Virus record (IMG/VR): IMGVR_UViG_3300032268_000986
Location: 110,259 to 174,258 of that record
Reading direction: 5' to 3' (one strand)
Length of the DNA stretch: 64,000 nucleotides
Source: a virus
Positions 895-63,455 of this stretch are shown here, in pieces (position 1 is the stretch's first letter; each line of letters begins with the position of its first letter). Below the pieces are notes generated by a model. That model saw only the letters and a list, made by a program, of their open reading frames with translations, did no database searches and was not told where the DNA came from. Both the position numbers and the translations under genes were made by a program.

Positions 895-924
895 TTGTGG
901 CTCCTTGTTGCTTACTATACTCAT

Positions 925-953
925 ATTATAACAAATTGGCCTTTATTGGTCAA
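925..953 (-). promoter_or_regulatory. Sigma70-type early promoter
   Basis: On the minus strand TTGACC (948-953) and TATAAT (925-930) are separated by exactly 17 bases. The -35 box lies in an extended GGTTGACCAA that is shared with the promoters at 1319-1347 and 1722-1750. It drives the gene starting at 894. Confidence 0.85.
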
Positions 954-973
954 CCAAGAACGCAGTGTTGCAT

Positions 974-1312: not shown

Positions 1313-1318
1313 GTGTAT

Positions 1319-1347
1319 ATTATAACCGATTTCGCCATTTTGGTCAA
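1319..1347 (-). promoter_or_regulatory. Sigma70-type promoter of the GIY-YIG gene
   Basis: TTGACC (1342-1347), 17-base spacer, TATAAT (1319-1324) on the minus strand. The -35 lies in TTGGTTGACCAA, an inverted repeat around TG. The -10 ends 6 bases before the ATG at 1312. Confidence 0.85.
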
Positions 1348-1360
1348 CCAAGATCAACAG

Positions 1361-1386
1361 AAAACCCCAGAATTTCTGGGGTTTTT
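1361..1386 (-). terminator. Intrinsic terminator hairpin
   Basis: A near-perfect inverted repeat (CCCCAGAA / TTCTGGGG) is flanked by A and T runs, so it could work in both directions. On the minus strand it follows the 88-aa gene and precedes the GIY-YIG promoter, separating the two transcripts. Confidence 0.8.
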
Positions 1387-1427
1387 GGTGTTGTATTTTT
1401 ACAACACCTGGGCATTATCGGATAATA

Positions 1428-1694
1428 TTAAACAAACTCAATATTATCAGTGCGTAGTTGTTGTTTTGCATGTTCAATAATACGAATTTTATCATTTTCG
1501 ATTGTTTCGTAAGCAATATCCCCTGAAACAAAATCGCATTTTACTTGAGTGGGAAATGGATATACAATATCTCCTTGATCATTTTCCCGAGGAAATACAT
1601 TAAACGCAATAATGATTTTGTAAGTTTCTTTATTTTTATTATAGATAATCTTTGCTCGTGCAATGTTTGCAACACGAATATTTGATGTAGACAT
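1428..1694 (-). CDS. Hypothetical early protein (88 aa)
   Basis: The start at 1694 (MSTSNIRV) has AAGGAGCC upstream and a sigma70-type promoter at 1722-1750; the longer frame would include the promoter. The sequence is basic at the N-terminus and beta-rich (KETYKIIIAFNVF, VKCDFVSGDIAYE), then helical. No family recognised. It is a single-gene transcript ended by the hairpin at 1361-1386. Its base composition is more A+T-rich than that of most neighbours. Confidence 0.6.
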   Translation of the reverse strand: MSTSNIRVANIARAKIIYNKNKETYKIIIAFNVFPRENDQGDIVYPFPTQVKCDFVSGDIAYETIENDKIRIIEHAKQQLRTDNIEFV

Positions 1695-1721
1695 AGCAGG
1701 CTCCTTTGTGACTGGACTGTA

Positions 1722-1750
1722 ATTATAACGCATCAGGGTTTTTTGGTCAA
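1722..1750 (-). promoter_or_regulatory. Sigma70-type early promoter
   Basis: TTGACC (1745-1750), 17-base spacer, TATAAT (1722-1727) on the minus strand. It shares the GGTTGACCAA extended -35 with the two promoters at 925-953 and 1319-1347. Confidence 0.85.
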
Positions 1751-1764
1751 CCGGATTCCCGGGC

Positions 1765-1772
1765 TATAAGTA
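1765..1772 (+). promoter_or_regulatory. Late-promoter-like box TATAAGTA, 5 bases before a start
   Basis: TATAAGTA differs from the T4 late box TATAAATA at one base and is followed by 5 bases and the ATG at 1778. No Shine-Dalgarno is visible. Confidence 0.5.
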
Positions 1773-1777
1773 ACAGC

Positions 1778-2851
1778 ATGACACAAGACCTTTACCACGA
1801 TATCTACACTTCCGAAGTGTTTGAAGCCAGTCAATGCATCTGGCACGAAAACAATCTCATGAATTTCTTGCACAGCATGTTGATCAAGCTGGGCTATGAA
1901 CCTGTGAAAGATGGTCACAAGACCTGGCGCCGGGGCGACAAAACAGTGGTGGTGTGCCTGGTGGACGACTATATCTCCACCACAGAAAATTATGATGTGC
2001 CAGTGGCCTATCGCTTTGATCGCAACACCACAGTGATCACTGACAACTTTGTCACCAGTCCCACCTTGTACCGAGTATTTCAATTGCCCTCGTCATGGTT
2101 TGGTATCTACAACTATGAGCCCAAGCAAACAGACTACAATCCCACACGCAGATTCAACTTTTCAGTGAATCGCATTGACAGCAAACGACTTTTGTTGTTG
2201 CTGGAAATTGCTCTGCGCAGTGAAAAATACCCAGACCGAGACACCCTGGATTTCGTCAACTTCAACTGCTGGTCTTGGGAAGGTGACAATGCCACACCCG
2301 AGGGCTTGCGTGACAGCTTTGTTCGAGTGTACGAGGCCCTGGAACCGCAGTACCGAGAAGTATATCAAGAAACATTCCAGCGTCTGTTGGAAAACATGCC
2401 ATTTCGCAATCATGACATGACCATGGAACAAGCACACTTGTCGGCCTATGTGAACATGGTGGCCGAAACCTACAGCTCGGACACATCCATTGCACTAAGT
2501 GAAAAAACATTTCGTGCCTTGGTGACCGCGGCACCCTGGCAATTGTACGCCGGCAAACATGCCGTGGCATACCTGGAAAGTCTGGGGTTTGATACCTTAC
2601 GTGATGTTGTGAATCACAATTATGACACCATCATTGAAAACAAGACCGCAGCCTATGGTGACAAACTGGTGGAGTGGATCTTTTCTGGTGCCGACACATT
2701 CACACGCTTGAGCAGCATGGATCGCACTGAACTGCGCCATCGTTGTTTGACCGCAGCCAGAACCAATCAAGCAGTGCTGGAAAGCATGAGTCGTCGTTGG
2801 CCCACTGAGTTTGCGGCCTGGCTGCCCGCAGTGATTGATCACATCCGGTAA
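1778..2851 (+). CDS. Glycosyltransferase-like phage protein, paralogue A (357 aa)
   Basis: One of four related proteins in this window. The C-terminal third carries an E-K-T-x-R-A-L helix, a pocket segment, then L-G-F-D-T-L-R-D-V-V and N-Y-D, the same order as in the genes at 5546, 6851 and 41254. The E-K-T helix and following G/P-rich loop recall the C-terminal nucleotide-sugar-binding half of GT-B enzymes such as GT10 fucosyltransferases. The N-terminal half is not recognised. Its stop overlaps the start of asparagine synthetase, so both belong to one plus-strand cargo operon. Confidence 0.5.
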   Translation: MTQDLYHDIYTSEVFEASQCIWHENNLMNFLHSMLIKLGYEPVKDGHKTWRRGDKTVVVCLVDDYISTTENYDVPVAYRFDRNTTVITDNFVTSPTLYRVFQLPSSWFGIYNYEPKQTDYNPTRRFNFSVNRIDSKRLLLLLEIALRSEKYPDRDTLDFVNFNCWSWEGDNATPEGLRDSFVRVYEALEPQYREVYQETFQRLLENMPFRNHDMTMEQAHLSAYVNMVAETYSSDTSIALSEKTFRALVTAAPWQLYAGKHAVAYLESLGFDTLRDVVNHNYDTIIENKTAAYGDKLVEWIFSGADTFTRLSSMDRTELRHRCLTAARTNQAVLESMSRRWPTEFAAWLPAVIDHIR

Positions 2852-4356
2852 TGTGCGGCGTCCTGTTGATTCAAGGCGCAGTATCGCCTGAACGCCAGCA
2901 GGCTGCACTGTCTAGATTGCGCCAACGTGGTCCTGATTTTGAAGTAGTGCATCAAACAGGATCATGTTTGCTGGCGCAGTCGGTGTTGCACATCACCGGC
3001 ACTAGAGATTTTTATCACCAACCTCGAGACGACGCCTTTGTGTACAACGGCGAAATTTACAACTGGCGTGATTTTGGTGACACAGCCAACGACACTGAAA
3101 CTGCATGGATGGCAGCCCGGCAGGATCCGGGCATGTTTGCCAAGTTTCACGGTCCCTGGGCCTGGGCCAGAGCCACTCAAGATCATGTTTGGTATGCCAC
3201 AGATCCACAGGGAGAACGCTATCTTTATCGATATCACACCCGAGACCTCACAGTGGTGGCCAGTGAAGCCGCAGTGGTGCAGGACATAGTGGCAAGTCTG
3301 CATCAGGACTGTGAGTACAACAACAAGTGCTGGACCCTGCAAGATCAAACTCCCTGGCAAGATATTCATCGCTTAGAGCCCGGCAGACTCTACTGTGATC
3401 ATGAGCCACAGCAGAGCCTGGACACAGTATGGAATTGGATCAGCCCAGTTGACTGCACTGCTCAGGAAGCACAACAAGAGTTTCAGCGACTGTGGCATCA
3501 GGTCATCAGCGACATGACGCCCACGTGTGACTTTGCCATCAGTTATTCCGGCGGTGTTGACAGCAGTCTGATCTTGAGTCAGTTGCCCAATGCTGAATTG
3601 GTCACGGTCAACATGCTGGGCAAAGACCCCATTGTGGATCGAGTCACTGAATTCCTTGCCTCGGTACAACTGCAAAATCTCAATCAAATCGATGTAGACG
3701 TTGAACAATATGCAGGCGAATACCGGGCCCTGATTGAACGCACACAGATGCCGGCACAGAGCTGGAGTTTTGTGGGCAAATGGTTGGTGGCCAAACACAC
3801 ACAATCTCGGGTGTTGTTCACTGGCCTGGCCGCAGACGAGTTGTTTGGCGGCTATGGCATCTATCAACAACTTGAGTATTCCACACAAGGCAGCACCAGT
3901 CCCTACAGCAGCGACGACCATGCAGGATTATGGGATCAGTGCTTGTCGGTGTACCAGGGCGATCCTAGACCGGCCACCTTGCTCATGGACTATTGGTATC
4001 AAGTAGTGGGGTGCGATGCCCCGGGTCAGGATAGAATTGCCGGTGCCTGGGGACGGGAAACACGCAACCCATTCATGCATCAATCAATCATGCGGTTTGC
4101 ATTGAACCTGCCCTGGCATTTGAGAGTAAATACAACATGCAAGCCTGTGCTGATAAATGAGTTCTTGCAGCATTGGCCCAGAGAGTTGCTGTTGCCCAAA
4201 CAGGGATTTGCAGGTCATGCAAATGACAGTCTGCCCTGGATGGCAGTAGATGTGGCAAACACTGGTGATCGCTATCGGGATTGGAAACAAATTGCTAAAA
4301 CGACTTATTACAACTACACACAAACACCAACAGCCCTGGCGCCACTGGATAACTGA
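2851..4356 (+). CDS. asnB: Asparagine synthetase, glutamine-hydrolysing (AsnB-like)
   Basis: This enzyme amidates aspartate or a related carboxylate using glutamine and ATP. The N-terminal nucleophile Cys2 directly follows the Met (MCGV), YNGEIYN lies in the glutaminase domain, SGGVDSS is the PP-loop of the synthetase domain, and G-L-A-A-D-E-L-F-G-G-Y follows. At 501 residues it is near the usual length. The start overlaps the previous stop (TAATG). Placed between a glycosyltransferase-like gene and an oxygenase-like gene, it more likely amidates a sugar acid or modified residue than feeds protein synthesis; that is inference. Confidence 0.88.
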   Translation: MCGVLLIQGAVSPERQQAALSRLRQRGPDFEVVHQTGSCLLAQSVLHITGTRDFYHQPRDDAFVYNGEIYNWRDFGDTANDTETAWMAARQDPGMFAKFHGPWAWARATQDHVWYATDPQGERYLYRYHTRDLTVVASEAAVVQDIVASLHQDCEYNNKCWTLQDQTPWQDIHRLEPGRLYCDHEPQQSLDTVWNWISPVDCTAQEAQQEFQRLWHQVISDMTPTCDFAISYSGGVDSSLILSQLPNAELVTVNMLGKDPIVDRVTEFLASVQLQNLNQIDVDVEQYAGEYRALIERTQMPAQSWSFVGKWLVAKHTQSRVLFTGLAADELFGGYGIYQQLEYSTQGSTSPYSSDDHAGLWDQCLSVYQGDPRPATLLMDYWYQVVGCDAPGQDRIAGAWGRETRNPFMHQSIMRFALNLPWHLRVNTTCKPVLINEFLQHWPRELLLPKQGFAGHANDSLPWMAVDVANTGDRYRDWKQIAKTTYYNYTQTPTALAPLDN

Positions 4357-44548: not shown

Positions 44549-44946
44549 GCAGTATGTATGAGGTCAAACAGTGGGCCAGCGTGAAATTCTCCTGACTGGG
44601 CCGTGATGCCTTGAGACAAATCAGCATGATTAAGTGGTACAATATGTGTTTCCACTGGGACGTCACCCTGTAACTGCATCAAGGCCAACATGCGGTGCCG
44701 CCCATTGTGTGCAATCACTGCGGGAGGATCTTGGTTGTCAAGATACAACACAGGATATCCAATTCCGGGATAAACCAGTCTGTGCTTGATCCAGTCAATG
44801 GTGTTCTGTTCTTGTGCGGTAAGCTCAATTGGCCGGCACAACGATAGAAATACTGTAGGGCGCATGCTCACCAACAAACGATGCGTATCTGCAGGTAAAT
44901 GAGCAGCTCCTATACCATAGTCGTTGTTGATGGTGTACGTGGTCAT
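44545..44946 (-). CDS. ParB-like-motif hypothetical protein (133 aa)
   Basis: P-P-A-V-I-A-H-N-G-R-H-R-M-L-A-L-M followed by V-P-V-E-T-H-I-V is the ParB/sulfiredoxin-type pattern (G-R-H-R-x-x-A between strands). The protein is short and lacks a helix-turn-helix partner domain. Such stand-alone ParB-fold proteins can be nucleases or nucleotide-binding enzymes. It overlaps both neighbours by ATGA. A cousin with a similar core is at 4824. Confidence 0.55.
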   Translation of the reverse strand: MTTYTINNDYGIGAAHLPADTHRLLVSMRPTVFLSLCRPIELTAQEQNTIDWIKHRLVYPGIGYPVLYLDNQDPPAVIAHNGRHRMLALMQLQGDVPVETHIVPLNHADLSQGITAQSGEFHAGPLFDLIHTA

Positions 44947-46388
44947 TTGTTACGACCCGACTTCATGTTGGCGCACCAGTGATACATGCGGGCCTTCTCA
45001 CCTGATGCACGTTTGGCACGGGCACGTAGGTCAGTAACTGATCCGTCGCAGCTGGCACCTGCCCGTTTCACACGGCCCGGGCGACTCTTGCCTTGGACTT
45101 TGCCGTCTGCAAAGTTTTCATTCAAGCCATTTAATTCTTGTTCACCTTGAGGTGTTAGAAACCAGAACCCGTCACCTGGTGTAACAATCAAGCCGGCATT
45201 TTCTAAACTGTCGTATACATTTTGTTGTGCATCAGTTATACCACGTATGTCTTGTTGAAAATCCAATCCATGGTTGTTGGCTACATCAATTGCTTTCATT
45301 AATAGTAATTTACCGTAACCTTGTCCTTGCCAGCGTGATTCAACTTCTGCTTCATTGTTGACGTCATCTGTGTCAGCACTGCGTACAAAATTGAAATACC
45401 CTACATGTTTTCCATGCACTGCTAGTGTGATTTGAAAACTGTGTTTATATCCGTCAGGTGAAGTGACTGTGAATTTTACAGGGTTTCCGCCATCTGCAAA
45501 GTTTTCTGCCACAGCTGGTTGTACTCTACTCAATTCATATATAACTAAATCGCCAGTGTCTGCACGAAAAGCTCTATAACCCCAGGCCCGAGCATAACGT
45601 TGAACCAGTCTGTCATACAACTTGGCACGACTTTCAGGATTTGGTTGAGGCTGGTCAGGCTCATAATATATTGTTGGGTCAGTTGCTTTACTGGCTGAAA
45701 AACTCAATCTTGAAGGTTTGTATTTTTTAATGTACTTTTGTATGGAAGCCAACACTGTGGCAAAGATTCTCTGGGCATCGCCTTCGCCAGTGACTTCTTG
45801 ACTGTTGTTTCTATAAAATTCAACCTGCACTATTTCTTTGCCCTCGTCATCTTGTTGATTGTTGAACATGATGCTTAAATTTGTTCCGTCGGGCAATTTG
45901 GCCAACATATCAACATCACCATACTCACTTTTTTCTGATTTGGTTTTGTAGGGGTTGTTGAAAGCTTCTGGCACAGGTTCCCAGGCCATGTTTTTACTGC
46001 CCTTGACCGCAGGCCGGAATCCCTGTGATCGATAGAACTTCATCAGTTTGCTTTGACTGACTTGGCCCTTGTCCCAGGGGTATAATGTGAGTGCAATGTT
46101 ATCTTCTTGTGCCAGACGTTGCAGTTCCCGCATGGCACGTGATCCAACTCCGGCACGCAGGGGATAGGCCTGGAACCATTTGACTTCCACTGCGTCACGT
46201 TTGCTGTTGCTGGGTGTGAGTTCAAACATGGCAAACTGTTGATCCTCGCCTGAACCGCCCATGGGCATGACATGATTGTTTTGCCAGGTCTGTGGATATG
46301 CTGCATAGACTTTTTGAATCCAGTCATATGCTCGTTGCTGTGGACTCAGCTTGATTGTGTTGTCAACAATGAATTCCTGTGCTCTCAT
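44943..46388 (-). CDS. Modular GNAT protein, probably virion-packaged (481 aa)
   Basis: Two GNAT-like acetyltransferase domains: the first around residues 25-140 (L-R-A-G-V-G-S-R-A-M-R-E-L), the second around 305-405 (W-Q-G-Q-G-Y-G-K-L-L-L-M-K, a clear acetyl-CoA loop). The start MRAQEFIVDN resembles a capsid-targeting peptide. Linkers V-A-E-N-F-A-D-G and L-N-E-N-F-A-D-G flank the second domain, each with a V/L-x-E site. The last 45 residues form a basic Cys-containing module. Start 5 bases after a TAAATA box, no Shine-Dalgarno. Confidence 0.7.
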   Translation of the reverse strand: MRAQEFIVDNTIKLSPQQRAYDWIQKVYAAYPQTWQNNHVMPMGGSGEDQQFAMFELTPSNSKRDAVEVKWFQAYPLRAGVGSRAMRELQRLAQEDNIALTLYPWDKGQVSQSKLMKFYRSQGFRPAVKGSKNMAWEPVPEAFNNPYKTKSEKSEYGDVDMLAKLPDGTNLSIMFNNQQDDEGKEIVQVEFYRNNSQEVTGEGDAQRIFATVLASIQKYIKKYKPSRLSFSASKATDPTIYYEPDQPQPNPESRAKLYDRLVQRYARAWGYRAFRADTGDLVIYELSRVQPAVAENFADGGNPVKFTVTSPDGYKHSFQITLAVHGKHVGYFNFVRSADTDDVNNEAEVESRWQGQGYGKLLLMKAIDVANNHGLDFQQDIRGITDAQQNVYDSLENAGLIVTPGDGFWFLTPQGEQELNGLNENFADGKVQGKSRPGRVKRAGASCDGSVTDLRARAKRASGEKARMYHWCANMKSGRNK

Positions 46389-46392
46389 AAAA

Positions 46393-49300
46393 CTATTTAA
46401 CTACGCCTTCGTCTAGCTCGTCTTCGGTCATGATTGGCACAACAGACATTTCTGTGCCGTATGCATAACCGTTGTTCTGCATCCACTGAGTGGCCACACG
46501 ATTTGCATCACGTTGCTGATTACCAATACCTGAGAATCTATACAACTCATTACCATCAGCATCTAGAATCTGCCAAGCACCGGAGAATGTGCCCGGAGTG
46601 GCTCGTTGCTGTGCCAAGGCTGCTGTGCTTCCAGGGTAGACCACCTCTATATCTGGTTCAATGTCAATGATACCATTTTGAGAAGAATCTTGACCAGTCT
46701 GACGAGTTCTCACTTCAAACTCATTGGGATTGTGTCCGTTTTGGCTTAGCCAAGTTCGTGCTTCGGATTCTGCATTGCGTCGGTACGTGCTGGGCGGGTT
46801 GAAGTAAACTTGATTGTTGCTTCTGCTGGCCACTTCCCAGGGCCCAGGACCGGTGGGTCTCAGCGGGTTAGTATCTGTCTGAGTGTTGGTCACACCGGGG
46901 CCACGCCGCATGCCAAATGTTCTTATAGCATCCTGAGTGTTCAATCTATGCGGCCCGTGCGCACGATAATCATCTAGGCGAATCTGAGCTTCGTCATCGT
47001 TGCGTAGCTGTGCAGTGTCAACTACCGCACCAGTTTCTCTATTGTAGATTTCGTAATCAACACTGGTGTCCACACCTTGTGGCTCTGGTGCAGCAGGTTC
47101 AATCTCTTGAACTGTTAATTCAAGATCATTTCCAGGGTTCCTTATGTTGTAATCCTGTATCCAGGCTCGAGCAGCGGCCTGGTCTCTAAATCGTCTAGTC
47201 ACAGACTCGCCGTCAACATTCATTGTTGCAAAGCGATCAAGCACTGCTACCCAAATACCCCAATTGCCAGTTGGTGTGCTGTCTTGTTCTTCAGCTGGGC
47301 GAATGGGCTGAGCCTGCCAGCCTTTGTCTCTAAACCATTCTTGTTCAGTGGCACCGCCGGTGTTCAAATTCCATTGTTGTCGGGCTTGTTGCATGGCTTC
47401 AAATTTACTAGAAGCAATGACCTCTATGCCTTGACTTTGATATGGAGAATCACTTGCACCAGTGACCTTCCATACAAATGGTCTATCCAAACTTTTATTA
47501 TCAACAGGCTCTTCATACGGACGCACTGGCTTGGCCACAACTGATTGTCTGGTGTTGGCCCAGCTGGGATAGCCATCTGCACCCAAGGCTTTTTCAATGG
47601 CTTCTTCTTTAGTGGTGGCAACAACTTCTATACCGGCTAGACTTTGCGGGGGATTTGTCACGCTCCACCACATTTTTTTACCGCTAGTCGCGCCGCGTTT
47701 GACCTGTCGTGTCAGCTGAGCCTGCTTGACAAAACTGCGCAGGGCTGCCTTGGGAATCTTGCCGGCTACGTATTCGGAAAAATATCTTATAGTGTCAGCG
47801 TCATCCTTGTTGTTTTCAGTCAACAGCTTGTACAGCTTCTTGAGGTATTCTTCTCTGTATGCTGCAGGATTCAAGGCAGCACTCATGGCCACTGTGAATC
47901 GCAACAGGGTGTTTTCAATTTGATCAAAGTTTTCGTCCAGCCAGTCGCCACCAGGTGAGCGGAATTCAATGTGCCCGTCCTTGGTATTGATTGATGTGTA
48001 CTTGCTGGTCACACCCGAGTGTATGGCCTTGGAAGCCAGGCTGTCCAAGTTGCCTTTCATTTTTTCCAGCAGTTGTTGAGCCGAGTCTGGATCGTTGCGC
48101 ACCTTGCCCTTGACCATGTCCAGGGCAGACTTGGCATAGGTGTTGCCAGCTCGGCCAAACAGATCCAGCACATATTTGTCGCCCATCAGCAGGGCCAGTT
48201 TTACAAAGTCCAGATTCTCTCTGCTGTAGCCCGGCACTGAAATATTGATGTGCAGGCCTGTGGAGTCATTGGTATAGCAGCCATATTCCTTGGCCCAGGC
48301 CTTGACCTTGTTCAAGTCGCTGAGTATTTCGTCAATGGGCAAGGGCGGGCTCACAAACTCCAGGCCAGTGTCGCCAGGATTATCGCCATCCAAGCTGCCG
48401 TCTGGTTCCACAATATAGTGTTGTGATGTTGGGCTAGGACGCGGTACTCGTCCTGAATGATAGCTGCCACTGGCCTTGGTGTCACGACCAATGGCGTTTT
48501 CAAACTCCTGTGCCACATCTTCAATGCTGGCTTCGCCACCGCCTACAGTGGTCCAGTACGGCCAAGAAATCTCATAGGCATTTTCTACACCGCTCATGCG
48601 ATCCAAGTCTTCGGCATCCAGCCAGTCGCTTTCGTCGTAACTTTCAAAATTTTCTTCACGGAACTCTTCAAAAGCATCACTACTGCCGGGGTCGATATGC
48701 AGGTTGGCAATGTATACCTCTAGTGCTTCCTCACGAGCTTCGCCCTCCAAGCCGTCGGGATTCCACTCAGATTCGTCTACATTGTTGGGCACCCATTCTT
48801 CTAGGAATTCTTCGCCACTGCGTTCCCAGTCTCGATAGAGTTTGTCATCCAGCCATTCCTGGAAATCATTCTGCATTCTTTCACGCAGGCGTTCTACTTC
48901 TCTACGACCATTGTAGTCACCATCATGGAAGAAGGCCACAGCATCATCAATGCTGCGGCAGCGTTCGTCTTGGTCATAGTCTGGCTCCAGATCACCGTCA
49001 TCATCGTTTTCGGTGTTGGGCACAATCATTTCAAATTCCATGCCGGCAATGGCGCCGGTACGGGCAGCTTCCTGCCGCAGGCTTGACGGACTCATGTTGA
49101 TCTCACCCAGGAACTCATCTTCCAACAAGGCAAATTCCCAATGTAGGTCATTGGCAAGCTCTTCACGCAGGTTGGCAGTCTTCATCAACAGTGCCGGGCG
49201 GCCTTGACTGTCAGTGTCCAAGGCCAGCTTGTTGGCTTCTCGGCCCACTTGTCCAGGCTTGATATCCACAGTCAAGGCCATGCTGTAGCGCGGGTCACGT

Positions 49301-50514
49301 GCTTCTTTTTTGTTTCGGGGAATGTAGCCCGATGCACTTTCTTTGATGGGTGCATCATCAAACTGTTCAGGATGTGCGACGGCCCAGTCACGCATGATAA
49401 TGCCGGCTCTAGCATTGGCATCGTTTTCCCAGCGTGATCCAGTTTCTCCTGCGTCTGCAGGCAAGGGGCGAGTCTGATGCTGGGCGCAGTGTACCAGTTC
49501 ATGTGCCACGGTACGCAGTACATCCAGTATGTGTCGATTTGTCAAGCTCACATTCAGCGTGTGTGCTTCAGGATCGTAGCGACCAAAGCTGTGATTGCTG
49601 GTGCCCCAGTCAGGGTCAGTGTGCAACACCACACGTGGTAAAGGATCAATATCTAACCGGTTGGCCACATGTTGTATAAAATCATTGATAGTGTCTGGAT
49701 CCAAGTCATCTTCACAGAACATCTTGGTACTGGGGCTGACACCGTCGGGCGTGGATCCTGCATCTTCAGCAAAGCCATAACGGAAACGCTGACGCGGCTT
49801 GTTTTGTTCACGCAGACTCAGCTCATGATCACGAGCAGCAGTTCTAGCATCACGCAAGGCCTTGATGCAGCCCTTGGTTCTTAGAATTTTAAAAACAATG
49901 TTTTCGCAGCCAAACTCACCATGCTGGTCCAGCCCACTCTGGCGCATGTTTCTAATCTTGTCCCATAGCCGGCCCATGGCATCTGCATCACCCGACTGAA
50001 TGGCGCTGTGAATGCGAGCGTCTAGGTCTTCTACCTTGGCTCGCACACAGGTGTCATCAATACGAGCACGTTTTTTACGTGGTACTTGTATCCAACGGTC
50101 ATTCATGACCGAGTATTCGCCTTGGCTTACCGGAGCTTCGGCAGCATTTTGCACATAGAGTTCAACTGGTATCTTGCCAATGGACAATGTGTGTTCGTCA
50201 TTGTACTGATATTTCTTGGCGTTGAACAGTTCTTGATACACATCATCCTGGCTGGGAAAATCCACCACAAGATGTAGATCAATATCTGACTGCGGAGTAT
50301 AACTGAAAGCAGCATTGCTGCCGCTCACAGTTATGTCTTTTACCTGTAGGTCAGATACACCTAGAAACTCCCGAAAATCAGCAGCAATTTCCAGGAGTTT
50401 GTCACGTACCTCGGGCAACATGTTTTCATCTCGTGCCCAAATCACAGGATTGAGACGATTGTGAAATTTTACTGCGTCGGTTAATTTAAAAGAATCCAGC
50501 TCATGAATGTTCAT
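46393..50514 (-). CDS. Giant fusion: nucleotidyltransferase, zinc metallopeptidase, amidoligase and repeat modules (1373 aa)
   Basis: Domains in order: a MNT-type nucleotidyltransferase (G65-S66, S76-D77-I78-D79), a zinc metallopeptidase with H338-E-L-V-H342, a linker module, and an amidoligase-like GCS/ATP-grasp-type region from about residue 490 (G-M-E-F-E-M, G-L-E-F-V-S-P-P, G-L-H-I-N-I-S-V, H-I-E-F-R-S-P-G-G). Finally come about six tandem modules of 50-60 residues, each with an aromatic strand and an E-A-x-x-x-A helix. The start MNIHELDSFK is weakly capsid-targeting-like; the start lies 5 bases from a TAAATA box. It reads like a packaged effector polyprotein. Confidence 0.75.
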   Translation of the reverse strand: MNIHELDSFKLTDAVKFHNRLNPVIWARDENMLPEVRDKLLEIAADFREFLGVSDLQVKDITVSGSNAAFSYTPQSDIDLHLVVDFPSQDDVYQELFNAKKYQYNDEHTLSIGKIPVELYVQNAAEAPVSQGEYSVMNDRWIQVPRKKRARIDDTCVRAKVEDLDARIHSAIQSGDADAMGRLWDKIRNMRQSGLDQHGEFGCENIVFKILRTKGCIKALRDARTAARDHELSLREQNKPRQRFRYGFAEDAGSTPDGVSPSTKMFCEDDLDPDTINDFIQHVANRLDIDPLPRVVLHTDPDWGTSNHSFGRYDPEAHTLNVSLTNRHILDVLRTVAHELVHCAQHQTRPLPADAGETGSRWENDANARAGIIMRDWAVAHPEQFDDAPIKESASGYIPRNKKEARDPRYSMALTVDIKPGQVGREANKLALDTDSQGRPALLMKTANLREELANDLHWEFALLEDEFLGEINMSPSSLRQEAARTGAIAGMEFEMIVPNTENDDDGDLEPDYDQDERCRSIDDAVAFFHDGDYNGRREVERLRERMQNDFQEWLDDKLYRDWERSGEEFLEEWVPNNVDESEWNPDGLEGEAREEALEVYIANLHIDPGSSDAFEEFREENFESYDESDWLDAEDLDRMSGVENAYEISWPYWTTVGGGEASIEDVAQEFENAIGRDTKASGSYHSGRVPRPSPTSQHYIVEPDGSLDGDNPGDTGLEFVSPPLPIDEILSDLNKVKAWAKEYGCYTNDSTGLHINISVPGYSRENLDFVKLALLMGDKYVLDLFGRAGNTYAKSALDMVKGKVRNDPDSAQQLLEKMKGNLDSLASKAIHSGVTSKYTSINTKDGHIEFRSPGGDWLDENFDQIENTLLRFTVAMSAALNPAAYREEYLKKLYKLLTENNKDDADTIRYFSEYVAGKIPKAALRSFVKQAQLTRQVKRGATSGKKMWWSVTNPPQSLAGIEVVATTKEEAIEKALGADGYPSWANTRQSVVAKPVRPYEEPVDNKSLDRPFVWKVTGASDSPYQSQGIEVIASSKFEAMQQARQQWNLNTGGATEQEWFRDKGWQAQPIRPAEEQDSTPTGNWGIWVAVLDRFATMNVDGESVTRRFRDQAAARAWIQDYNIRNPGNDLELTVQEIEPAAPEPQGVDTSVDYEIYNRETGAVVDTAQLRNDDEAQIRLDDYRAHGPHRLNTQDAIRTFGMRRGPGVTNTQTDTNPLRPTGPGPWEVASRSNNQVYFNPPSTYRRNAESEARTWLSQNGHNPNEFEVRTRQTGQDSSQNGIIDIEPDIEVVYPGSTAALAQQRATPGTFSGAWQILDADGNELYRFSGIGNQQRDANRVATQWMQNNGYAYGTEMSVVPIMTEDELDEGVVK
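46394..46399 (-). promoter_or_regulatory. Late-promoter-like TAAATA box, 5 bases before a start
   Basis: TAAATA on the minus strand, 5 bases before the ATG at 46388. It overlaps the TAG stop of the preceding gene. Confidence 0.4.
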
Positions 50515-51525: not shown

Positions 51526-52104
51526 CTATTTGACGCCAATGATCATGAAACGAGTATATGCAGTTTCAGGATCTTCAAGAGATAGGCTGCCTGAATACAA
51601 TATCTGACTCAAGGGAAATTGTTGTTGAATATCTTTTGCACTGAAAAACGGGTTCTCTTCCACATGGTCACGTGCCTGCATGGCCACTAGTGTTCCCGGA
51701 GGAATATTCTGAAACCAGTCACTGCCCGCTATGTCGGTCAGGCTCAGATTGATCACACTGCCTTGGCCGTCCAGTTGTTGGTAGTCAAGACCATTGGCGT
51801 CTTTGCGCATGTGTTCAACGCCCTGATATCCCAGTTGATCCAGCATGGTTTTACCTGTGAACAAACGTTCACTGTTGGTTTCTACATTGATTATCTTGTC
51901 TACCTCCAGGGCAGACTGGCGTCTTATCAGCAGAGCCAGGTTACTGTACCAAGACCCCAGCACATACATCACAGAAACATAATCGGTAATCTTGGACAAC
52001 TCCTGGATCAACCACAACTTGCTGAATACCAGGTCTGGTGTAAAACTACCACTGAAGCTGTAGCCTGAGCTTTCGGCCAGGCCCACTACATCTTCCACAA
52101 TCAT
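51526..52104 (-). CDS. Methyltransferase-fold phage protein (192 aa)
   Basis: Y-V-S-V-M-Y-V-L-G-S-W-Y-S-N-L-A-L-L-I is a motif I-like strand-loop, D-K-I-I-N-V-E-T-N gives the acidic ribose-binding residue, and V-I-N-L-S-L-T-D-I matches the next strand. G-T-L-V-A-M-Q-A-R-D follows. This fits a small class I methyltransferase or spermidine-synthase-like fold. ATGA overlap with the large modular protein upstream. Substrate unknown. Confidence 0.55.
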   Translation of the reverse strand: MIVEDVVGLAESSGYSFSGSFTPDLVFSKLWLIQELSKITDYVSVMYVLGSWYSNLALLIRRQSALEVDKIINVETNSERLFTGKTMLDQLGYQGVEHMRKDANGLDYQQLDGQGSVINLSLTDIAGSDWFQNIPPGTLVAMQARDHVEENPFFSAKDIQQQFPLSQILYSGSLSLEDPETAYTRFMIIGVK

Positions 52105-53660
52105 TTTTTACGACCCTGACAGTGAGCTCGCTGACTGAATCCCCGGGGACTGGCGCAGTTGATTGAACTTTTGTATTTTTGACTCCACTTTTCATCAATG
52201 TAGTCTTCGTCCACGGGCTGATTTTCTCTACGTTGATAGCTGGCAGTCATGCCACCCACAAAGTTTTGTGCATCAACTTCGGTCATGTCAGGCTTGTCCA
52301 TCAGGGGACCACCTGTGACCCAGGCATCGCAGGTTCTGCGACTGGCACATTTGAACTTTAGAAACTTGCAGTATCCCAGGTCGCCGGCGTCAATCACACC
52401 TTCTGCATCTGCAGGCGAGTCAGCATCAATACCTTGCGCAATGCAGTCCAAGGTGTCTTGGCGTATGTCAAATGCCGCACAGTTGCCGCACAGGCTTTGT
52501 TTTGCTTCTTCTGCACTGTCAAGATTCCACTCGTCAACTTTTTTCATCCAGAACTTGCGGTTGGACATGTCTGGGTTGAGTGGGCCATATCCGTATTCGT
52601 CAATGGCTTTTTGTCTGTTCTTGAGATTCAGTGTGATGTCCTGTGTGGCAGGCGGACACTTCTTTTCAGCCTCCGCCACACCTTGTGATTCAAAATTATC
52701 TATATTTCTAGAAACTCTACGCTCACTGCCTTGAGCAGGGAATCCTGAACTTTGTGATTGCGGCGCAGGTCTTCCTGGGGCATACTTAGATAACTTTTCA
52801 GTGGCTTTTTCTCTAGCAATAGTCATCCACATTTGTTGTTGTCTGCGATCAATAGGCTGGCCACGTGTGGCAACTATTTGTTCATAGATTGCTCGTGCCA
52901 TTTCCTCTATGTCTTTATTGTGTTGCACACGAGGATCATCTTGACGCATGTTTTGGAATTCTCTTGAAACATCAACAGGACGTGATTGTGCTATTGCAGA
53001 TCCAGCTGCACCTGCCACAGCCGCCGCACCTAGTCCACGTAAGAATCCTCTACGGCTCAAGTCTTCGTCAAGTTCACCGCCAATGGCTGTGTCCAACAGT
53101 TTGACAACCGTGGCAGCTAGTCGGGGATTGGTTTGTGTCTTGGGATACAAGCTCATTACCAGAGCTGTTTTGCGTTGATCATTTAACCGGGGCCAGGCAG
53201 CGCGAATTTCTGTGGCCGATGTCATTCCGGGACCAAATTCCACAGTGGGCAAGTAGGCCATGTAGGCATGCCGGGCAAATGGTTCTAGTCGGCGAGCACC
53301 CATGAGTGGTTGCAGGTATGCAGGTGATCCGTCTTTTTTTACACCACCGGCCTGGGGTGGTTTGTTGGCGTCTTTTTCACTGCGTACAAAGATCAGTCGA
53401 TCCTGTGCAGGGTCAAATTGAGCAGTGATTTCCTCGGCACGAAATGGTGATTTGACCTGCACAAAATGTCCAGGCTCAACTCCAGCCAACTTGGCCAGTT
53501 TTTCTTTTACAGCAAATGGAAATGGTCTAGCCGATGTGTCATTTGTGGCTGCCACAAATACTTTGGCGTCGGGAAATGCTCTGCGGGCAGAGTTGTAAAG
53601 GGCTGCATGGCCAGCATGAAAAGGGTGAAACCCACCCGGTATAATAACAACGGTAGTCAT
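52101..53660 (-). CDS. Modular nucleotidyltransferase with internal Tat-like signal and Cys-rich modules (519 aa)
   Basis: Residues 1-175 form a cytidylyltransferase-like domain (P-G-G-F-H-P-F-H-A-G-H at 8-18, then M-T-S-A-T-E-I-R). At 201-225, directly after E-L-D-E-D, lies S-R-R-G-F-L-R-G-L-G-A-A-A-V-A-G, a twin-arginine signal-like stretch. The C-terminal 190 residues carry G-V-A-E linkers and Cys-rich modules (C-P-P-A-T-Q-D-I, C-G-N-C-A-A-F, final A-S-P-R-G-F-S-Q-R-A-H-C). Start 5 bases from a TAAATA box. Probably packaged in the virion. Confidence 0.7.
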   Translation of the reverse strand: MTTVVIIPGGFHPFHAGHAALYNSARRAFPDAKVFVAATNDTSARPFPFAVKEKLAKLAGVEPGHFVQVKSPFRAEEITAQFDPAQDRLIFVRSEKDANKPPQAGGVKKDGSPAYLQPLMGARRLEPFARHAYMAYLPTVEFGPGMTSATEIRAAWPRLNDQRKTALVMSLYPKTQTNPRLAATVVKLLDTAIGGELDEDLSRRGFLRGLGAAAVAGAAGSAIAQSRPVDVSREFQNMRQDDPRVQHNKDIEEMARAIYEQIVATRGQPIDRRQQQMWMTIAREKATEKLSKYAPGRPAPQSQSSGFPAQGSERRVSRNIDNFESQGVAEAEKKCPPATQDITLNLKNRQKAIDEYGYGPLNPDMSNRKFWMKKVDEWNLDSAEEAKQSLCGNCAAFDIRQDTLDCIAQGIDADSPADAEGVIDAGDLGYCKFLKFKCASRRTCDAWVTGGPLMDKPDMTEVDAQNFVGGMTASYQRRENQPVDEDYIDEKWSQKYKSSINCASPRGFSQRAHCQGRKK

Positions 53661-54211: not shown

Positions 54212-54877
54212 TTATTTAGCCTGTATTGGTAGTGTTTTTCTAATGATCCCGGGAGACACTAGATTCAACATTTGAATGTCACGCACATCGTCATGATCAA
54301 TAAAAAAGTGACTCTGCACATAAACATGCCGGGATGCGGCGAGCCGCTCGCGAAACCCCGGGGTCAAACGATAGCAATCGCCTCGATTCAGCAGAAATCT
54401 TCGCAGTGCATGCCCTTGCTCTTGCTCCAGCATGCGACCACGGAAATAACTGCGATACCGGTGTTGTGGTTTTTCCAGTATCACAACATCTCGGGGCAAT
54501 GCTACCCGAGCTCGAGTACCGTTTCCGTCTGGCTGTGCAGCCACCAGCCGGTCAAGATCTGCTAGACTGTTGGTGTACACGTACATCCAGTCACTGTAGA
54601 AAATACGCTTGTGGGGTTCTTCAAATGCCGCCAACACATCACACATGTCGTGCAATCGTGCCACCCAGTTGTCATCAATGACTCTAGCCGGGTTTGACCA
54701 GCTGTATTTCAACAGTAGAGTGTTTGTTGCACCAACGGCGGTACTCACAGCTTCATGGGTGAGAGTGTGCAAGCACCTGGCTCCACGCATGGCAAAGTTG
54801 TAGCCAAATTCGTACTGATCATAGAACAGCCGATCTCGCACACGATCTTCAAATGTTGTCAAGTCTAATGATGCCAT
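54212..54877 (-). CDS. Conserved phage hypothetical protein (221 aa)
   Basis: Aromatic-rich alpha/beta protein: Y-D-Q-Y-E-F-G-Y-N-F, R-I-F-Y-S-D-W-M-Y-V-Y, Y-R-S-Y-F-R-G-R-M-L, L-L-N-R-G-D-C-Y-R-L-T-P-G-F, F-F-I-D-H-D-D, and a final V-S-P-G-I-I-R-K-T-L-P-I. The R-G-R and D-H-D-D blocks are conserved-looking but no family is known to me. It overlaps the ClpA-like end by 29 bases. Confidence 0.55.
   Translation of the reverse strand: MASLDLTTFEDRVRDRLFYDQYEFGYNFAMRGARCLHTLTHEAVSTAVGATNTLLLKYSWSNPARVIDDNWVARLHDMCDVLAAFEEPHKRIFYSDWMYVYTNSLADLDRLVAAQPDGNGTRARVALPRDVVILEKPQHRYRSYFRGRMLEQEQGHALRRFLLNRGDCYRLTPGFRERLAASRHVYVQSHFFIDHDDVRDIQMLNLVSPGIIRKTLPIQAK
54213..54219 (-). promoter_or_regulatory. 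Late-promoter-like CTAAATA box, 7 bases before a start
   Basis: CTAAATA on the minus strand, 7 bases before the ATG at 54205; no Shine-Dalgarno. Confidence 0.5.
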
Positions 54878-57113
54878 CGCTGCCTACTGTTTGTGTGCTG
54901 GGGGAAATTACCACAAATTCAACTTGATCATCTACTAGATCAGCCACAACTTCGCAATCTCTAAGTTGATCAAACAAGATGCGTTTGCTGAGTGGCACAC
55001 GCAACAACTCGTCAATCTTGCGGCTCAAGGGTCTGGCACCCAACTTGCTGTCGTAGCCCTTTTTGGCCAACAAGTCCACGGCAGCTTCGCTCACAGTGAG
55101 TCGAATGTTGCGCTGGGCCAGGCTGGTTTTGAGATCGTCTACAAATTTTACCACGACCTTTTTAATGGACAAATTGTCCAGCTTTTGGAACTTGACCACT
55201 GAGTCAATACGGTTTCGCATTTCGGGCTTGAAAAACTCTTTTACTGCTCGATCATCTTCGCCGGTTTTCTCAAAGCTACCAAAGCCAATGTTGTTGGTTT
55301 CACTATCTCGGGCGCCCAGGTTTGATGTCATGATGATGATGCAGTTCTTGCAATTGGCTTTCTTGCCATTTGAACTGGTGATAACACCTTCGTCCAGCAT
55401 CTGCAACATGATGTTGGTGACGTCGGGGTGAGCCTTTTCAATCTCGTCAAACAGCACAATGGCAAAGGGATTTTTGCTGAGATCTGAAATCAGTTTGCCA
55501 CCGCCTATGTTGCCATCTTCAAAACCCACGTAGCCTGGCGGCGCACCAATCAAGCCGCTGACCGAGTGACGTTCTTGAAATTCACTCATGTCGTATTTCA
55601 GCAAGGGCATGTCAAGATTTGCACTCAACAATCGAGCCAGTTCAGTCTTGCCTGTGCCAGTGGGTCCTGTGAACAAGAAACTGGCCATGGGACGCTTGTC
55701 ATTGCCAATGCCAGCGAAGGAAATATACACACGTTCCAGCACTGTGTCCACAGCTGAATCTTGCCCGTATAACTTTTGTTTGATATTGCTTTCAAGTTCC
55801 ACAATTTTGGCTGATCGTTCGTTCTGCAGACGGTCTGTGGGCACACCGGTCACACGACTCAGTTGAGCTTCAATCAAGGCACGAGTAATGGTCACACAGC
55901 CTTGATCCCGCACACGTTCACGAGCACAGGCACCGTCAATCAAGTCAATTGATTTGTCGGGATTCTTTTTGTCATGAATGTAACGATTTGCCAGTTCCAC
56001 AGCAGTGGTCATGGCCTCGGTGTCAATCAACACATTGTGGAATGTTTCCAGGCGTGGTGAGAGACCAATCAGGATCTGTTCTGTGGTCACTGCATCGGGT
56101 TCATCAATGCTGAGCTTGTGAAAGCGGCGCATCAAGGCACGATCTTTTTCAAAGCTCTCGTAAAACTCTTCCCAGGTGGTTGATGCCACTACCTTGAGCA
56201 TGCCCTTGGTGATGGCCGGTTTCAGCATGTTGGCAAAGTCCAAGCTGGAGTTTGATCCAGAACCGGCGCCACGCATGGTGTGAGCCTCGTCGATGAACAA
56301 AATGGTCTTTTTCTTGGTCTCCAAGGCTGCAATCACCTGTTTGAATTTTTCTTCAAACTCACCGCGGTACTTTGACCCAGCCAGCAAACTACCAATTTCC
56401 AGGCTCCACACTTCGTGATCTTTGAGAAACTCGGGCACACGTCCTGCATGAATTTCCTGGGCCAGTCCATCCACAATGGCAGTTTTGCCCACGCCGGGAT
56501 CGCCCACCATGAGCACATTGGCTTTGAAGCGTCGAGCCAACACCGTGATCATGTCTGACAGTTCGGTGCTGCGACCAATCATGGGTTCCAGTTGATTTTT
56601 TGCAGCACGAGCAGACAAATTCATGCAGTATTCTTCCAGCACAGCATCGGCCTGTTGCTCAGACATCACTGCCGAAGATTCTTGACTGTAGTTTTTGCTC
56701 CAGAACTCAACAAATTCTGCTTTCTTCACTCCATACTTGAGCAAGAAATAGTGTGCATGACTGTTGGTTTCGGCCATGATAGACAGATACAAGTCAATCG
56801 TGGTCAATTGACGTCGTCCAGTAAACATCACTTGTACATTGGCGCGATTAAAAATGCGTTCCAGTGACTGTGTTTTTTTAGGTTGTGTGTCTGGAGTGTT
56901 GCTGATCATGCCCACTAGACTGCCAAGATATGCTGTTATGTCAGCATCCAGGTTGACCACGTCGGCACCAAAGCGTTCCAGAGTCTTACGGAATGGGTCA
57001 AATCGAATCATGCTCAACAACAGGTGTTCAGTCAGCACATACTCGTGTTTTTGGTCACGAGCAATTTTCACGGCCTGTTCAACAACAAATTCAATATCGG
57101 GGCTATTTTGCAT
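54849..57113 (-). CDS. clpA: ClpA-like AAA+ unfoldase with ClpP-docking loop (754 aa)
   Basis: An N-terminal Clp repeat domain (T-E-H-L-L-L-S-M-I), first ATPase domain (G-D-P-G-V-G-K-T, F-I-D-E-A-H), second ATPase domain (G-P-T-G-T-G-K-T, L-F-D-E-I-E-K-A-H) and the C-terminal small domain (K-L-G-A-R-P-L-S-R). I-G-F occurs at the position of the ClpP-binding IGL/IGF loop, before K-P-E-M-R-N-R-I-D. No ClpB coiled-coil insert, so it is ClpA/C type. It could direct host ClpP to chosen substrates. AAGGAACC precedes the start at 57113. Confidence 0.92.
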   Translation of the reverse strand: MQNSPDIEFVVEQAVKIARDQKHEYVLTEHLLLSMIRFDPFRKTLERFGADVVNLDADITAYLGSLVGMISNTPDTQPKKTQSLERIFNRANVQVMFTGRRQLTTIDLYLSIMAETNSHAHYFLLKYGVKKAEFVEFWSKNYSQESSAVMSEQQADAVLEEYCMNLSARAAKNQLEPMIGRSTELSDMITVLARRFKANVLMVGDPGVGKTAIVDGLAQEIHAGRVPEFLKDHEVWSLEIGSLLAGSKYRGEFEEKFKQVIAALETKKKTILFIDEAHTMRGAGSGSNSSLDFANMLKPAITKGMLKVVASTTWEEFYESFEKDRALMRRFHKLSIDEPDAVTTEQILIGLSPRLETFHNVLIDTEAMTTAVELANRYIHDKKNPDKSIDLIDGACARERVRDQGCVTITRALIEAQLSRVTGVPTDRLQNERSAKIVELESNIKQKLYGQDSAVDTVLERVYISFAGIGNDKRPMASFLFTGPTGTGKTELARLLSANLDMPLLKYDMSEFQERHSVSGLIGAPPGYVGFEDGNIGGGKLISDLSKNPFAIVLFDEIEKAHPDVTNIMLQMLDEGVITSSNGKKANCKNCIIIMTSNLGARDSETNNIGFGSFEKTGEDDRAVKEFFKPEMRNRIDSVVKFQKLDNLSIKKVVVKFVDDLKTSLAQRNIRLTVSEAAVDLLAKKGYDSKLGARPLSRKIDELLRVPLSKRILFDQLRDCEVVADLVDDQVEFVVISPSTQTVGSDGIIRLDNI

Positions 57114-57169
57114 ATGGTTCCTTGAAATACTTTCAATAATTTTAACACACTGGCCTGGCTGATGCAACC

Positions 57170-57970
57170 TTATTGGCAGTGTTCCTTGATGGCCTGTGTC
57201 ACAGCGTCGGGCACATGATCGGGTATGTATGCTGTCAGGCGCAGCATGAGATCGCCACGACCTGTGCCAGAATCTTGCAGTCCACGCTGTCGCAGCCGCA
57301 TCACAGTTCCAGGTTGGCTGGCAGCAGGTATGTTGATGGTCAGTTCATTGCCCAAAAAATCACTCAGGTCAACATCGCCGCCTGTGATCAATTTCCAGAT
57401 TGAAATCCTAAAATCAGTGTGCAAGTTCAAACCATCTCGGCGCCACGCAGGATCGGGCTGCACTCGATACTGCACCACAAGGTCTTGTCCCCCGGGCGCT
57501 ACACCACTGTATTGTACATTGTCCCCGTCCTGGATACCACGGGGCACTGAAATTTCCACAGTGGTGGTACCGGCACTGCTGCCAATGGACACACGTCGAG
57601 TGGATCCCAGTGCAACATCACGCAACTGTATAGTGACCGACATGCGAACATGACTGCGTCGAGGCTGTGCGCCACCGGGAAATCCTCCAGTGAATCCACC
57701 CTGACGAAACATGCTGAACAAGTCATTGATGTCCACTCCAGCCGGGTGAAACCCACCACCCCCGCCGCCCTGGAATGGCGAGGGATTGTCATAGGCTGCT
57801 CGTTTGTTGGGATCACTCAGGGTGTCATAGGCTACCTGAATTTCTTGAAATCGAGCTGTGTCGCCACCTTTGTCGGGATGATGCTGGCTGGCCAGTCGAC
57901 GGAAAGCACGTTTGATTTCATCGGCAGCAGCGGTTCGAGCAACTCCTAGAGTTGCATAGTGATCGGTCAT
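57170..57970 (-). CDS. DnaJ/CbpA-type J-domain co-chaperone (266 aa)
   Basis: J-domain at residues 1-65 with Y-x-x-L-G-V, H-H-P-D-K and the F-x-x-I-x-x-A-Y-x-x-L segment. A Gly/Phe-rich region follows (F-Q-G-G-G-G-G-G-F), then two substrate-binding beta domains, and no zinc-finger, like CbpA or class II DnaJ. The start at 57970 has GGACC upstream and a promoter at 57994-58022. It directly precedes the ClpA-like gene, so the pair probably acts together with host DnaK on phage or host proteins. Confidence 0.9.
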   Translation of the reverse strand: MTDHYATLGVARTAAADEIKRAFRRLASQHHPDKGGDTARFQEIQVAYDTLSDPNKRAAYDNPSPFQGGGGGGFHPAGVDINDLFSMFRQGGFTGGFPGGAQPRRSHVRMSVTIQLRDVALGSTRRVSIGSSAGTTTVEISVPRGIQDGDNVQYSGVAPGGQDLVVQYRVQPDPAWRRDGLNLHTDFRISIWKLITGGDVDLSDFLGNELTINIPAASQPGTVMRLRQRGLQDSGTGRGDLMLRLTAYIPDHVPDAVTQAIKEHCQ

Positions 57971-57993
57971 AGAAAAGGTCCAGTACAACATTA

Positions 57994-62339: not shown

Positions 62340-63455
62340 TCAGCAGTTCCACTTGCGCAGTGCCAGAGCCTTGCGAGTGGGTTTACCATTGGGCTTTTTC
62401 ATGGGGCCTTTGACGCCGCCCATTCTGGCACAAAATGATTTTCTGCGCTTGGCTGCTTTGGAACCTGGCTTGAGTTTTGAAGGCTTGGTGGTCACTGCCA
62501 TTTGCAGTTTGCTACCGGGATTCTCTCTGCGATAGCTGGCCACACCCTTGGCATTGAGTCCGCCCTTTTTGCTCTTGCCTTCTTTTCTGCGCCAGGCAGC
62601 AGTTTCATACAGCACGTTGTCTGGCAGGGCTTCAAACTGTTCCCATACTAGATCTTTACTCACACGATTTTTCACTGCCATTTCTTCGGCCAGTTGATCC
62701 ATGGCTTCAAACATCTCATCCACTTCAGGATCCACTTCGTCCGACGCTTCTTCAGAGTACATGTAGTCCCACACTGCGACCAGCATGCTCTTGGCCACAG
62801 CAATCTTTTCCTGGCACCATTCAGGCAAGTTGTCGCCTGAGTCAATCAAGTCGTCGATACCTCGAACAGCACGATCCAGGGTTTCTAGATTGTTGTCGGC
62901 CATGCCGGCTTCGTCGTCATACTCGGGATTGTAGTTTTCTGGCATGGTTTGTTCACCAAAACGTTGACGATAGCTGTTGGGGTTCATTGACGATCTGGTC
63001 CCGACCACAGCATTGCCTTCGCCACTTAATAACAAATCATACATGAGTTTGATTACTTTTAAGGGGCTATTCATTCTTTCCAGGGCGTTTTTAAACCATT
63101 CAACTTTTTCTGGTTTCATTGGCTTGGAACTGGGCTTGCTGATCAGCGCCAGGGCCTGAGCCTTTAGCGTGGACAAGTCTCTGATTTGTTCAAGACGTTT
63201 TAAATCCTCAATATCAAAGTTGTAATCGGCTTTGCCTTCCGCCACACCTTCTGACTTGTTGCCATAGTTGCCAGCGCCTTTTTTGCGGCACTGAACCAGG
63301 CGTCCTGATGCATAGGCTGACGGCCATACTTTTGCACTAGACTTGACCTTGTAGTAACAGGCGTCTTTCTTTTCCATCATCAGCATTTCGCTGAACATGG
63401 GGCCACCACAGTGTGGGCATGACTGTTTGGATTCAACCAAGTCTTTGAATTTCAT
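62340..63455 (-). CDS. Modular basic Cys-containing virion-type protein (371 aa)
   Basis: Start MKFKDLVESK has the capsid-targeting pattern with an L-V-E site. A C-P-H-C-G-G zinc-ribbon-like pair and a W-P-S-A-Y-A-S-G-R-L-V-Q-C-R-K module follow, then G-V-A-E-G linker, a helical module (F-K-N-A-L-E-R-M), an acidic middle, and a C-terminal K-S-F-C-A-R-M-G-G-V-K-G-P-M-K module resembling DUF6321. AAGGAAAAC precedes the start at 63455, which overlaps the upstream stop (ATGA). Function unknown; it looks packaged in the head. Confidence 0.68.
   Translation of the reverse strand: MKFKDLVESKQSCPHCGGPMFSEMLMMEKKDACYYKVKSSAKVWPSAYASGRLVQCRKKGAGNYGNKSEGVAEGKADYNFDIEDLKRLEQIRDLSTLKAQALALISKPSSKPMKPEKVEWFKNALERMNSPLKVIKLMYDLLLSGEGNAVVGTRSSMNPNSYRQRFGEQTMPENYNPEYDDEAGMADNNLETLDRAVRGIDDLIDSGDNLPEWCQEKIAVAKSMLVAVWDYMYSEEASDEVDPEVDEMFEAMDQLAEEMAVKNRVSKDLVWEQFEALPDNVLYETAAWRRKEGKSKKGGLNAKGVASYRRENPGSKLQMAVTTKPSKLKPGSKAAKRRKSFCARMGGVKGPMKKPNGKPTRKALALRKWNC

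Follow-up and report, generated by a model that had tools for sequence, protein, structure and literature searches.

Prohead-protease-type motifs at the joints of predicted modular cargo polyproteins in a jumbo phage

Two short sequences, VAENFADG and LNENFADG, flank a GNAT domain in a protein of a large phage genome, and raise the question of what such repeated linkers are for. The first-pass annotation of this DNA had proposed that they resemble sites of the T4 prohead protease, cut after I/L-x-E, and might divide packaged polyproteins into free domains inside the head. The DNA analysed here (the window) is a stretch of 64,000 nucleotides, G000:C1:110259-174258, of a virus record of 342,865 bp. 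The large terminase of this record shares 52% identity, across 97% of its length, with its counterpart in Pseudomonas phage PA5oct and is also close to those of Atu_ph07, GAP32 and PBECO4, and its large tail sheath and tube protein match tail families. By this terminase kinship and these tail matches, the phage is classed as a T4-superfamily jumbo myovirus. Searches of cultured phages gave no DNA match for the region and no tblastn match for the protein in question or its tag. We propose, with a probability of about 85%, that proteins of this kind are modular cargo polyproteins which would be targeted to the prohead core by a leader, cut by a gp21-type protease at [I/L/V/M]-x-E joints, and ejected in parts with the DNA.

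The translation of positions 44943-46388 (minus strand; hereafter the 44943 protein) contains both sequences exactly as first described. VAE is residues 293-295, within RVQPAVAENFADGGNPVKF, LNE is residues 422-424, within ELNGLNENFADGKVQGK, and the GNAT domain between them (Pfam Acetyltransf_7/_1) lies at residues 322-376 (E about 1e-6). A third joint, PVPE/AFNNPYK (E141; the slash marks the predicted cut), had been overlooked and brings the total to three [VL]-x-E sites. Homologues divide the 481-aa protein into a leader and modules A, B, C and D:

44943..46388, minus strand: predicted four-module cargo polyprotein, 481 aa (leader, module A, module B, GNAT module C, basic tag D)
46362..46388, minus strand: capsid-targeting-type leader MRAQEFIVD, residues 1-9, Asp replacing Glu at the cut position
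45975..46361, minus strand: module A, residues 10-138, delimited by homologues in other contexts and by the model
45966..45974, minus strand: predicted prohead-protease site 1, VPE/A (E141); pLDDT<50 in residues 138-142
45513..45965, minus strand: module B, residues 142-292, AFNNPYK...YELSRVQPA; stand-alone relatives begin MRAHEFIAE/AFDQPYK
45504..45512, minus strand: predicted prohead-protease site 2, VAE/N (E295); pLDDT<50 in residues 291-301
45126..45503, minus strand: module C, GNAT acetyltransferase, residues 296-421; behind a leader in loci L393, L042 and L043
45117..45125, minus strand: predicted prohead-protease site 3, LNE/N (E424); pLDDT<50 in residues 424-436
44946..45116, minus strand: module D, residues 425-481, basic Cys-containing tag NFADGKVQGKSRPGRVKRAGASC...MYHWCANMKSGRNK, 57 aa, pI 11.0

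An AlphaFold model of the 44943 protein (41 sequences, mean pLDDT 80.7, pTM 0.46) has pLDDT values below 50 only in residues 1-16, 107-109, 138-142, 291-301 and 424-436, which correspond to the leader, one 3-residue loop and the three joints. Further [ILVM]xE occurrences at E56, E88 and E285 fall in folded parts and not at joints, so that accessibility must contribute to the choice of site. In the model, module A appears to have GNAT-like secondary structure. Foldseek searches with the whole model returned generic GNAT-type matches, in which the multidomain nature of the query made the rmsd large. AcrVA5, an anti-CRISPR acetyltransferase, is among the GNAT matches of this model (m186250e7fcd6; TM-score by target 0.67, E 3e-3), a match that seems too unspecific for a claim of function.

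Among all open reading frames of at least 60 aa in the 342,865-bp record, xxxExFADG occurs only twice, both times in the 44943 protein. FADG had been read as part of the linker, and this part of the claim does not stand: NFADG belongs to the downstream module, as its N-terminus, and it is [VL]-x-E that forms the joint. A protease site that includes FADG is ruled out, since ENFADG opens two different downstream modules and modules without FADG carry the same [ILVM]xE joint.

All four modules occur in relatives behind a short N-terminal leader that ends in [IV]xE at the same point, which places x-E at the predicted mature N-terminus. Module A reads MRAQEFVAE/ITISG (L032) and, in another relative, MRLYEFIDE/TVIKLSG; module B reads MRAHEFIAE/AFDQPYK (L021); module C MRANEFVTE/NFADGRNPVKFT (L393), a GNAT domain starting with NFADG; and module D MRAQEFVTE/NFADGKVKGKS (L080). 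Because the modules are found both at internal joints and behind leaders with the same Glu, the joint and the leader end represent the same signal. By a loose criterion a leader was recognised in 90 of 282 module proteins versus 428 of 5440 others, so many module proteins are without a recognisable leader. In T4 IPIII, Asp at position 10 of the capsid-targeting sequence, the last position of the leader, permits targeting and inhibits processing (PMC9026906). Given this precedent, the leader MRAQEFIVD, which also ends in Asp, may escape processing with targeting still allowed, and module A is predicted to keep its leader while modules B, C and D would be released. Elsewhere in the record, near the terminase gene, two adjacent small genes (306974-307719, minus strand) start with MRAREFVTE and MRAREFITE, and their products are probably simple internal head proteins.

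If the joints are protease sites, the Glu should be invariant while its flanks drift, a check that the first-pass annotation had itself suggested. The tag NFADGK.KGKSRPGRVKRAGASC...MYHWCANMKSG always follows Glu in 59 open reading frames of other viral contigs, and the sequence before it varies from protein to protein. With loci found solely through an E-containing pattern left out, 61 dissimilar sequences upstream of the NFADG tag were available: P1 is Glu in all 61, P3 is I, L, V or M in 50 (background 0.19, p=4e-26), and P2 is aliphatic in four. At 92 dissimilar joints before an unrelated module, xWSxKYKxSI[ND]C, the corresponding numbers are 83 for Glu at P1, 76 for I/L/V/M at P3 (p=2e-38) and two for aliphatic P2; both P-values are binomial and treat the non-redundant sequences as independent. 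About 18% of the joints are without I/L/V/M at P3. Positions P4-P12 of the 61 and 92 upstream sequences are near background and hold little or no information, so that the flanks do drift around a constant Glu. Module B, after six unrelated regex matches had been set aside by eye, gave Glu at P1 in 28 of 28 homologues and an aliphatic P3 in 24 of them. Conversely, the upstream domain that ends in ...VIYELSR has five different continuations (a Tat-like module, a GNAT module, a tag and two other sequences), each after VxE. The joints thus follow the L/I-x-E motif of gp21 substrates, with V and M frequent at P3 as well.

Three readings that need no cleavage can be weighed against these numbers. 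The joints could be fossils of gene fusion, in which neighbouring cargo genes with leaders merged and the tail of the second leader persisted uncut; the shared [ILVM]xE at leader ends and the existence of stand-alone versions would suit this. However, nothing of the leader is left except P3 and P1: MRAxEF has been lost, P4-P12 lie near background, and an aliphatic P3 persists at the joints of quite different modules; the fusion reading would require selection on exactly those two residues, and we consider it unlikely. Recombination sites at the DNA level, with the protein motif as a by-product of microhomology, would account for the free shuffling of modules and for ENFADG at the start of two different ones, but P3 is encoded by 13 different codons and the joint Glu by both of its codons, which means that selection acts on the protein. 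Moreover, P1' before the KWS module varies (K, E, G, A, D, S, T and R) while P1 stays Glu. Codon diversity at the conserved positions rules out a site of DNA microhomology, and we give this reading next to no weight.

The third reading, plain flexible linkers biased to E after an aliphatic residue, agrees with the disorder of the joints in the AlphaFold model and was set against an unsupervised all-against-all comparison of 6,135 proteins, in which the ends of local alignments (HSPs) served as module boundaries; the proteins are from loci gathered by module-based searches and do not represent a random sample of phages. The motif [ILVM]xE was observed at 620 HSP starts (278 expected) and 563 HSP ends (227 expected), at 35% and 39% of boundaries versus 13-17% in shifted windows, a 2.2-2.5-fold enrichment that may be somewhat inflated, as for all motifs, because alignment ends favour matched residues, an effect bounded by the control motifs. 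In the same test [ILVM]xD, [ILVM]xQ and [ILVM]xK showed no enrichment (about 0.9-1.2), and Glu at other spacings was weakly enriched (1.1-1.2 at spacing 0, [ILVM]E; 1.25-1.5 at spacings 2 and 3). Such exact spacing and restriction to Glu make uncut flexible linkers very improbable, and the prohead-protease reading of the joints is the one followed below.

The related V-A-E linkers that had been noted in two further proteins of the window are also present, QGVAE at residue 330 of the 52101 protein and EGVAE at residue 118 of the 62340 protein. Together with a large neighbour of the 44943 protein, these are predicted to be cargo proteins as well:

52101..53660, minus strand: second predicted cargo polyprotein, 519 aa (cytidylyltransferase/NMNAT-like module, Tat-like module, Cys-rich CPPATQ module, basic KWSxKYK tag)
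53064..53072, minus strand: predicted site ELDE/DLSRRGFL (E199)
52998..53063, minus strand: Tat-type signal DLSRRGFLRGLGAAAVAGAAGS directly behind the E199 site; Pfam TAT_signal 17.9 bits, below the cut-off of 22.7
52671..52679, minus strand: predicted site QGVAE/AEKKCPPATQ (E330); relatives have MRDLLNLFE/A...CPPATQ
52191..52214, minus strand: predicted sites PVDE/DYIDE/KWSQKYK (E485, E490)
52104..52190, minus strand: basic tag KWSQKYKSSINCASPRGFSQRAHCQGRKK, 29 aa, pI 10.7
62340..63455, minus strand: third predicted cargo polyprotein, revised start MKFKDLVE/SKQSCPHCGG, C-terminal DUF6321 tag
63237..63245, minus strand: predicted site EGVAE/GKADYNFD (E118); relative L021 has GMNE/GKADYNFD
62604..62612, minus strand: predicted site VLYE/TAAWRRKEGK before the DUF6321 module (E329)
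46393..50514, minus strand: fourth predicted cargo protein, 1373 aa, with nucleotidyltransferase, zinc-peptidase-like (HELVHC) and amidoligase regions

For the 52101 protein, 11 relatives have an aligned segment that extends to the first joint, and in each of these the nucleotidyltransferase module closes with [LMVI]xE. The Cys-rich module of the 52101 protein (CPPATQ...CGNCAAF, 52206-52670, minus strand) is labelled 'high potential iron-sulfur protein' in other phage records and is found alone behind MRDLLNLLEA-type leaders in relatives, and the KWS tag is present in T4-like cyanophages. The 62340 gene probably starts at 63455 (MKFKDLVE) and not at the GTG at 63590, since a related stand-alone module starts MNIKDIITE/SKHKCPHCGG. 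The joint before DUF6321 reads LNE/AAAW, ELDE/SAAW or MKITEVIVE/TAAW in relatives; many other contigs encode DUF6321 as a tiny separate protein without the joint Glu (MAK-TPAWQRKEGK), which provides a natural control. This basic domain (window 62343-62603, minus strand; L434-L550), with FCARM...ALRKWNC, is very common in viral contigs, either alone or as a C-terminal tag. The three C-terminal tags are all strongly basic (pI 11.0, 10.7 and 11.8) and may bind DNA. The 1373-aa protein has candidate sites SLRE/Q (E236) and PIKE/S (E392) near the ends of homologous segments, which are weaker than the sites of the other proteins. Just outside the window, a 633-aa protein (record 179650-181551, minus strand) has three more QGVAE or EGVAE joints and a Tat-type module, LEEIDRRGFLKG; its neighbour at record 179021-179653 starts with MRAQEFVTERKKRRGKK. 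Adjoining the cargo genes, those for a Clp-type double AAA+ ATPase and a DnaJ-like protein lie side by side (window 54849-57991, minus strand).

A protease of the required type is present in relatives. In T4, gp21 is the prohead protease that cleaves head proteins after L/I-x-E and also strips internal proteins of their capsid-targeting leaders (PMC9026906). A first set of 18 module-bearing contigs had its family, Peptidase_S77, on 11, and a second set of 16 had it on eight (one contig being shared); it was present on all 11 distinct module-bearing contigs of at least 260 kb, and at E 0.01 it was absent from all control genomes searched. Residues H85, S140 and D168 of T4 gp21 are invariant in five aligned homologues from relatives, in which the protease is thus intact. 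In 10 relatives the capsid protein has L-x-E before an AG-rich stretch initiated by [SN] at the T4-like maturation point; the shell of these phages thus seems to be processed by the same cutting rule. The T4 sequences fit this rule at what we take, from general knowledge of T4 and from the motif, to be the cut points: FLTE/AEI in gp23, ELLRE/STT in gp24 and MKTFKEF...ITE/ATL in IPI.

No protease, portal or capsid gene was found in the record itself (profile searches with PF03420 and PF07068 were negative). In the syntenic relative G005, however, the portal, protease, scaffold and capsid genes form a 9-kb block that sits exactly between genes that match record positions 2,543-3,373 and 341,210-342,403, near the two ends of the record. 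A phage without the protease was therefore set aside, as this synteny puts the missing block between the contig ends (record 1-3,373 and 341,210-342,865), in a gap of roughly 9 kb; the absence of the portal-protease-scaffold-capsid block is most likely an assembly gap.

Another protease might instead make the cut, after injection and not in the head; candidates are a host enzyme and the zinc-peptidase-like region of the 1373-aa protein. The adjoining 1373-aa protein does hold an HELVHC motif, without a Pfam peptidase match, and embedded peptidases have been proposed for polyvalent proteins (PMC5512222). No peptidase was found in the 44943 protein. Since the site rule equals that of gp21 and that of the phage capsid protein, and since leader and joint share it, another protease appears improbable. 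The suggestion that the joints are T4-type prohead-protease sites, which had been made from the I/L-x-E resemblance, gains strong comparative support from the Glu with aliphatic P3, from gp21 homologues in relatives and from leaders that end at the same Glu.

Some joints are followed by twin-arginine signals. In viral contigs (L389-L432), modules with RRGFL[KR]G have [ILVM]xE within 8 residues upstream in 39 of 43 cases; in 39 of 43 the module is internal, and it would be N-terminal only if the joint were cut. An internal signal of this kind directly behind a site would thus be made N-terminal by the cut. The Pfam TAT_signal score is above the cut-off for L390 and below it for the protein of the window. 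Behind Tat-type signals we found LysM and an SLT transglycosylase (L390) and a TonB C-terminal domain (L411). These Tat-type signals are suggestive of periplasmic delivery. Tentatively, the head protease may act as an export switch: its cut would expose Tat signals, the host Tat system would export the ejected parts to the periplasm, and lytic transglycosylase, LysM, TonB-like or other modules would act there early in infection. In the portions of the open-licence literature consulted, we found no prior description of such a use of Tat signals by phages.

The nearest known systems share single elements with this arrangement. T4 internal proteins are cargo that is packaged and ejected (PMC9026906), and IPI, IPII and IPIII likewise carry a short N-terminal leader cut after I/L-x-E (in IPI, MKTFKEF...ITE/A). 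However, they are single small proteins, whereas here two to many modules have a site at each joint. T4 Alt and head proteins of phiKZ and SPN3US are also cut after x-E inside the prohead by homologous proteases, the motifs of gp21-type proteases being L/I-x-E, S/A-x-E and A-x-E (PMC9026906, PMC10052503). Such proteases are known to remove propeptides (PMC10052503, PMC5694885); of the 14 sites in SPN3US, 13 remove N-terminal propeptides and the remaining one lies at the C-terminus of the protease itself (PMC10052503). In contrast, the protease is predicted here to part several functional modules, a role for which the papers searched gave no precedent. Polyvalent proteins of phages combine several domains, GNAT, nucleotidyltransferase and peptidase domains among them, and are believed to enter the cell along with the DNA (Iyer et al. 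2017; PMC5512222). Here, too, several unrelated biochemical domains occur in one phage polypeptide; the release of polyvalent proteins, however, has been ascribed to embedded peptidase domains, without a prohead-protease site code (PMC5512222). DarA and DdrB of phage P1 are cut before or during head packaging, according to what is cited in PMC5512222, but are without a repeated site between exchangeable modules. In the portions of the open-licence literature consulted, no prior description of prohead-protease sites as joints between exchangeable cargo modules was found, and searches of open-licence PMC literature for the joint-motif strings gave chance matches only. What is new is thus the polyprotein form, propeptide removal by gp21-type proteases and polyvalent proteins being already known.

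From the sequences we infer the following course of events. An N-terminal capsid-targeting leader would carry the precursor into the prohead core, where the gp21-type prohead protease (Peptidase_S77) would cut after [I/L/V/M]-x-E at every joint, in one maturation step with the trimming of the major capsid protein. The domains would thereby be freed inside the head as separate enzymes and small basic tags, and these would be ejected with the DNA. Evolution would add modules by recombination and keep only the short recognition signal.

Read in this way, the joint rule amounts to a code in the sequence: for a large group of uncultured jumbo phages, the ejected cargo could be read directly from the genomes, with every stretch from one [ILVM]xE joint to the next, or following a leader, as a predicted virion-delivered protein. 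It would account for the short linkers (QGVAE, ENFADG) common to many multidomain 'hypothetical' phage proteins, and it suggests natural parts for packaging several proteins in phage heads. It would also extend the T4 internal-protein system to true polyproteins.
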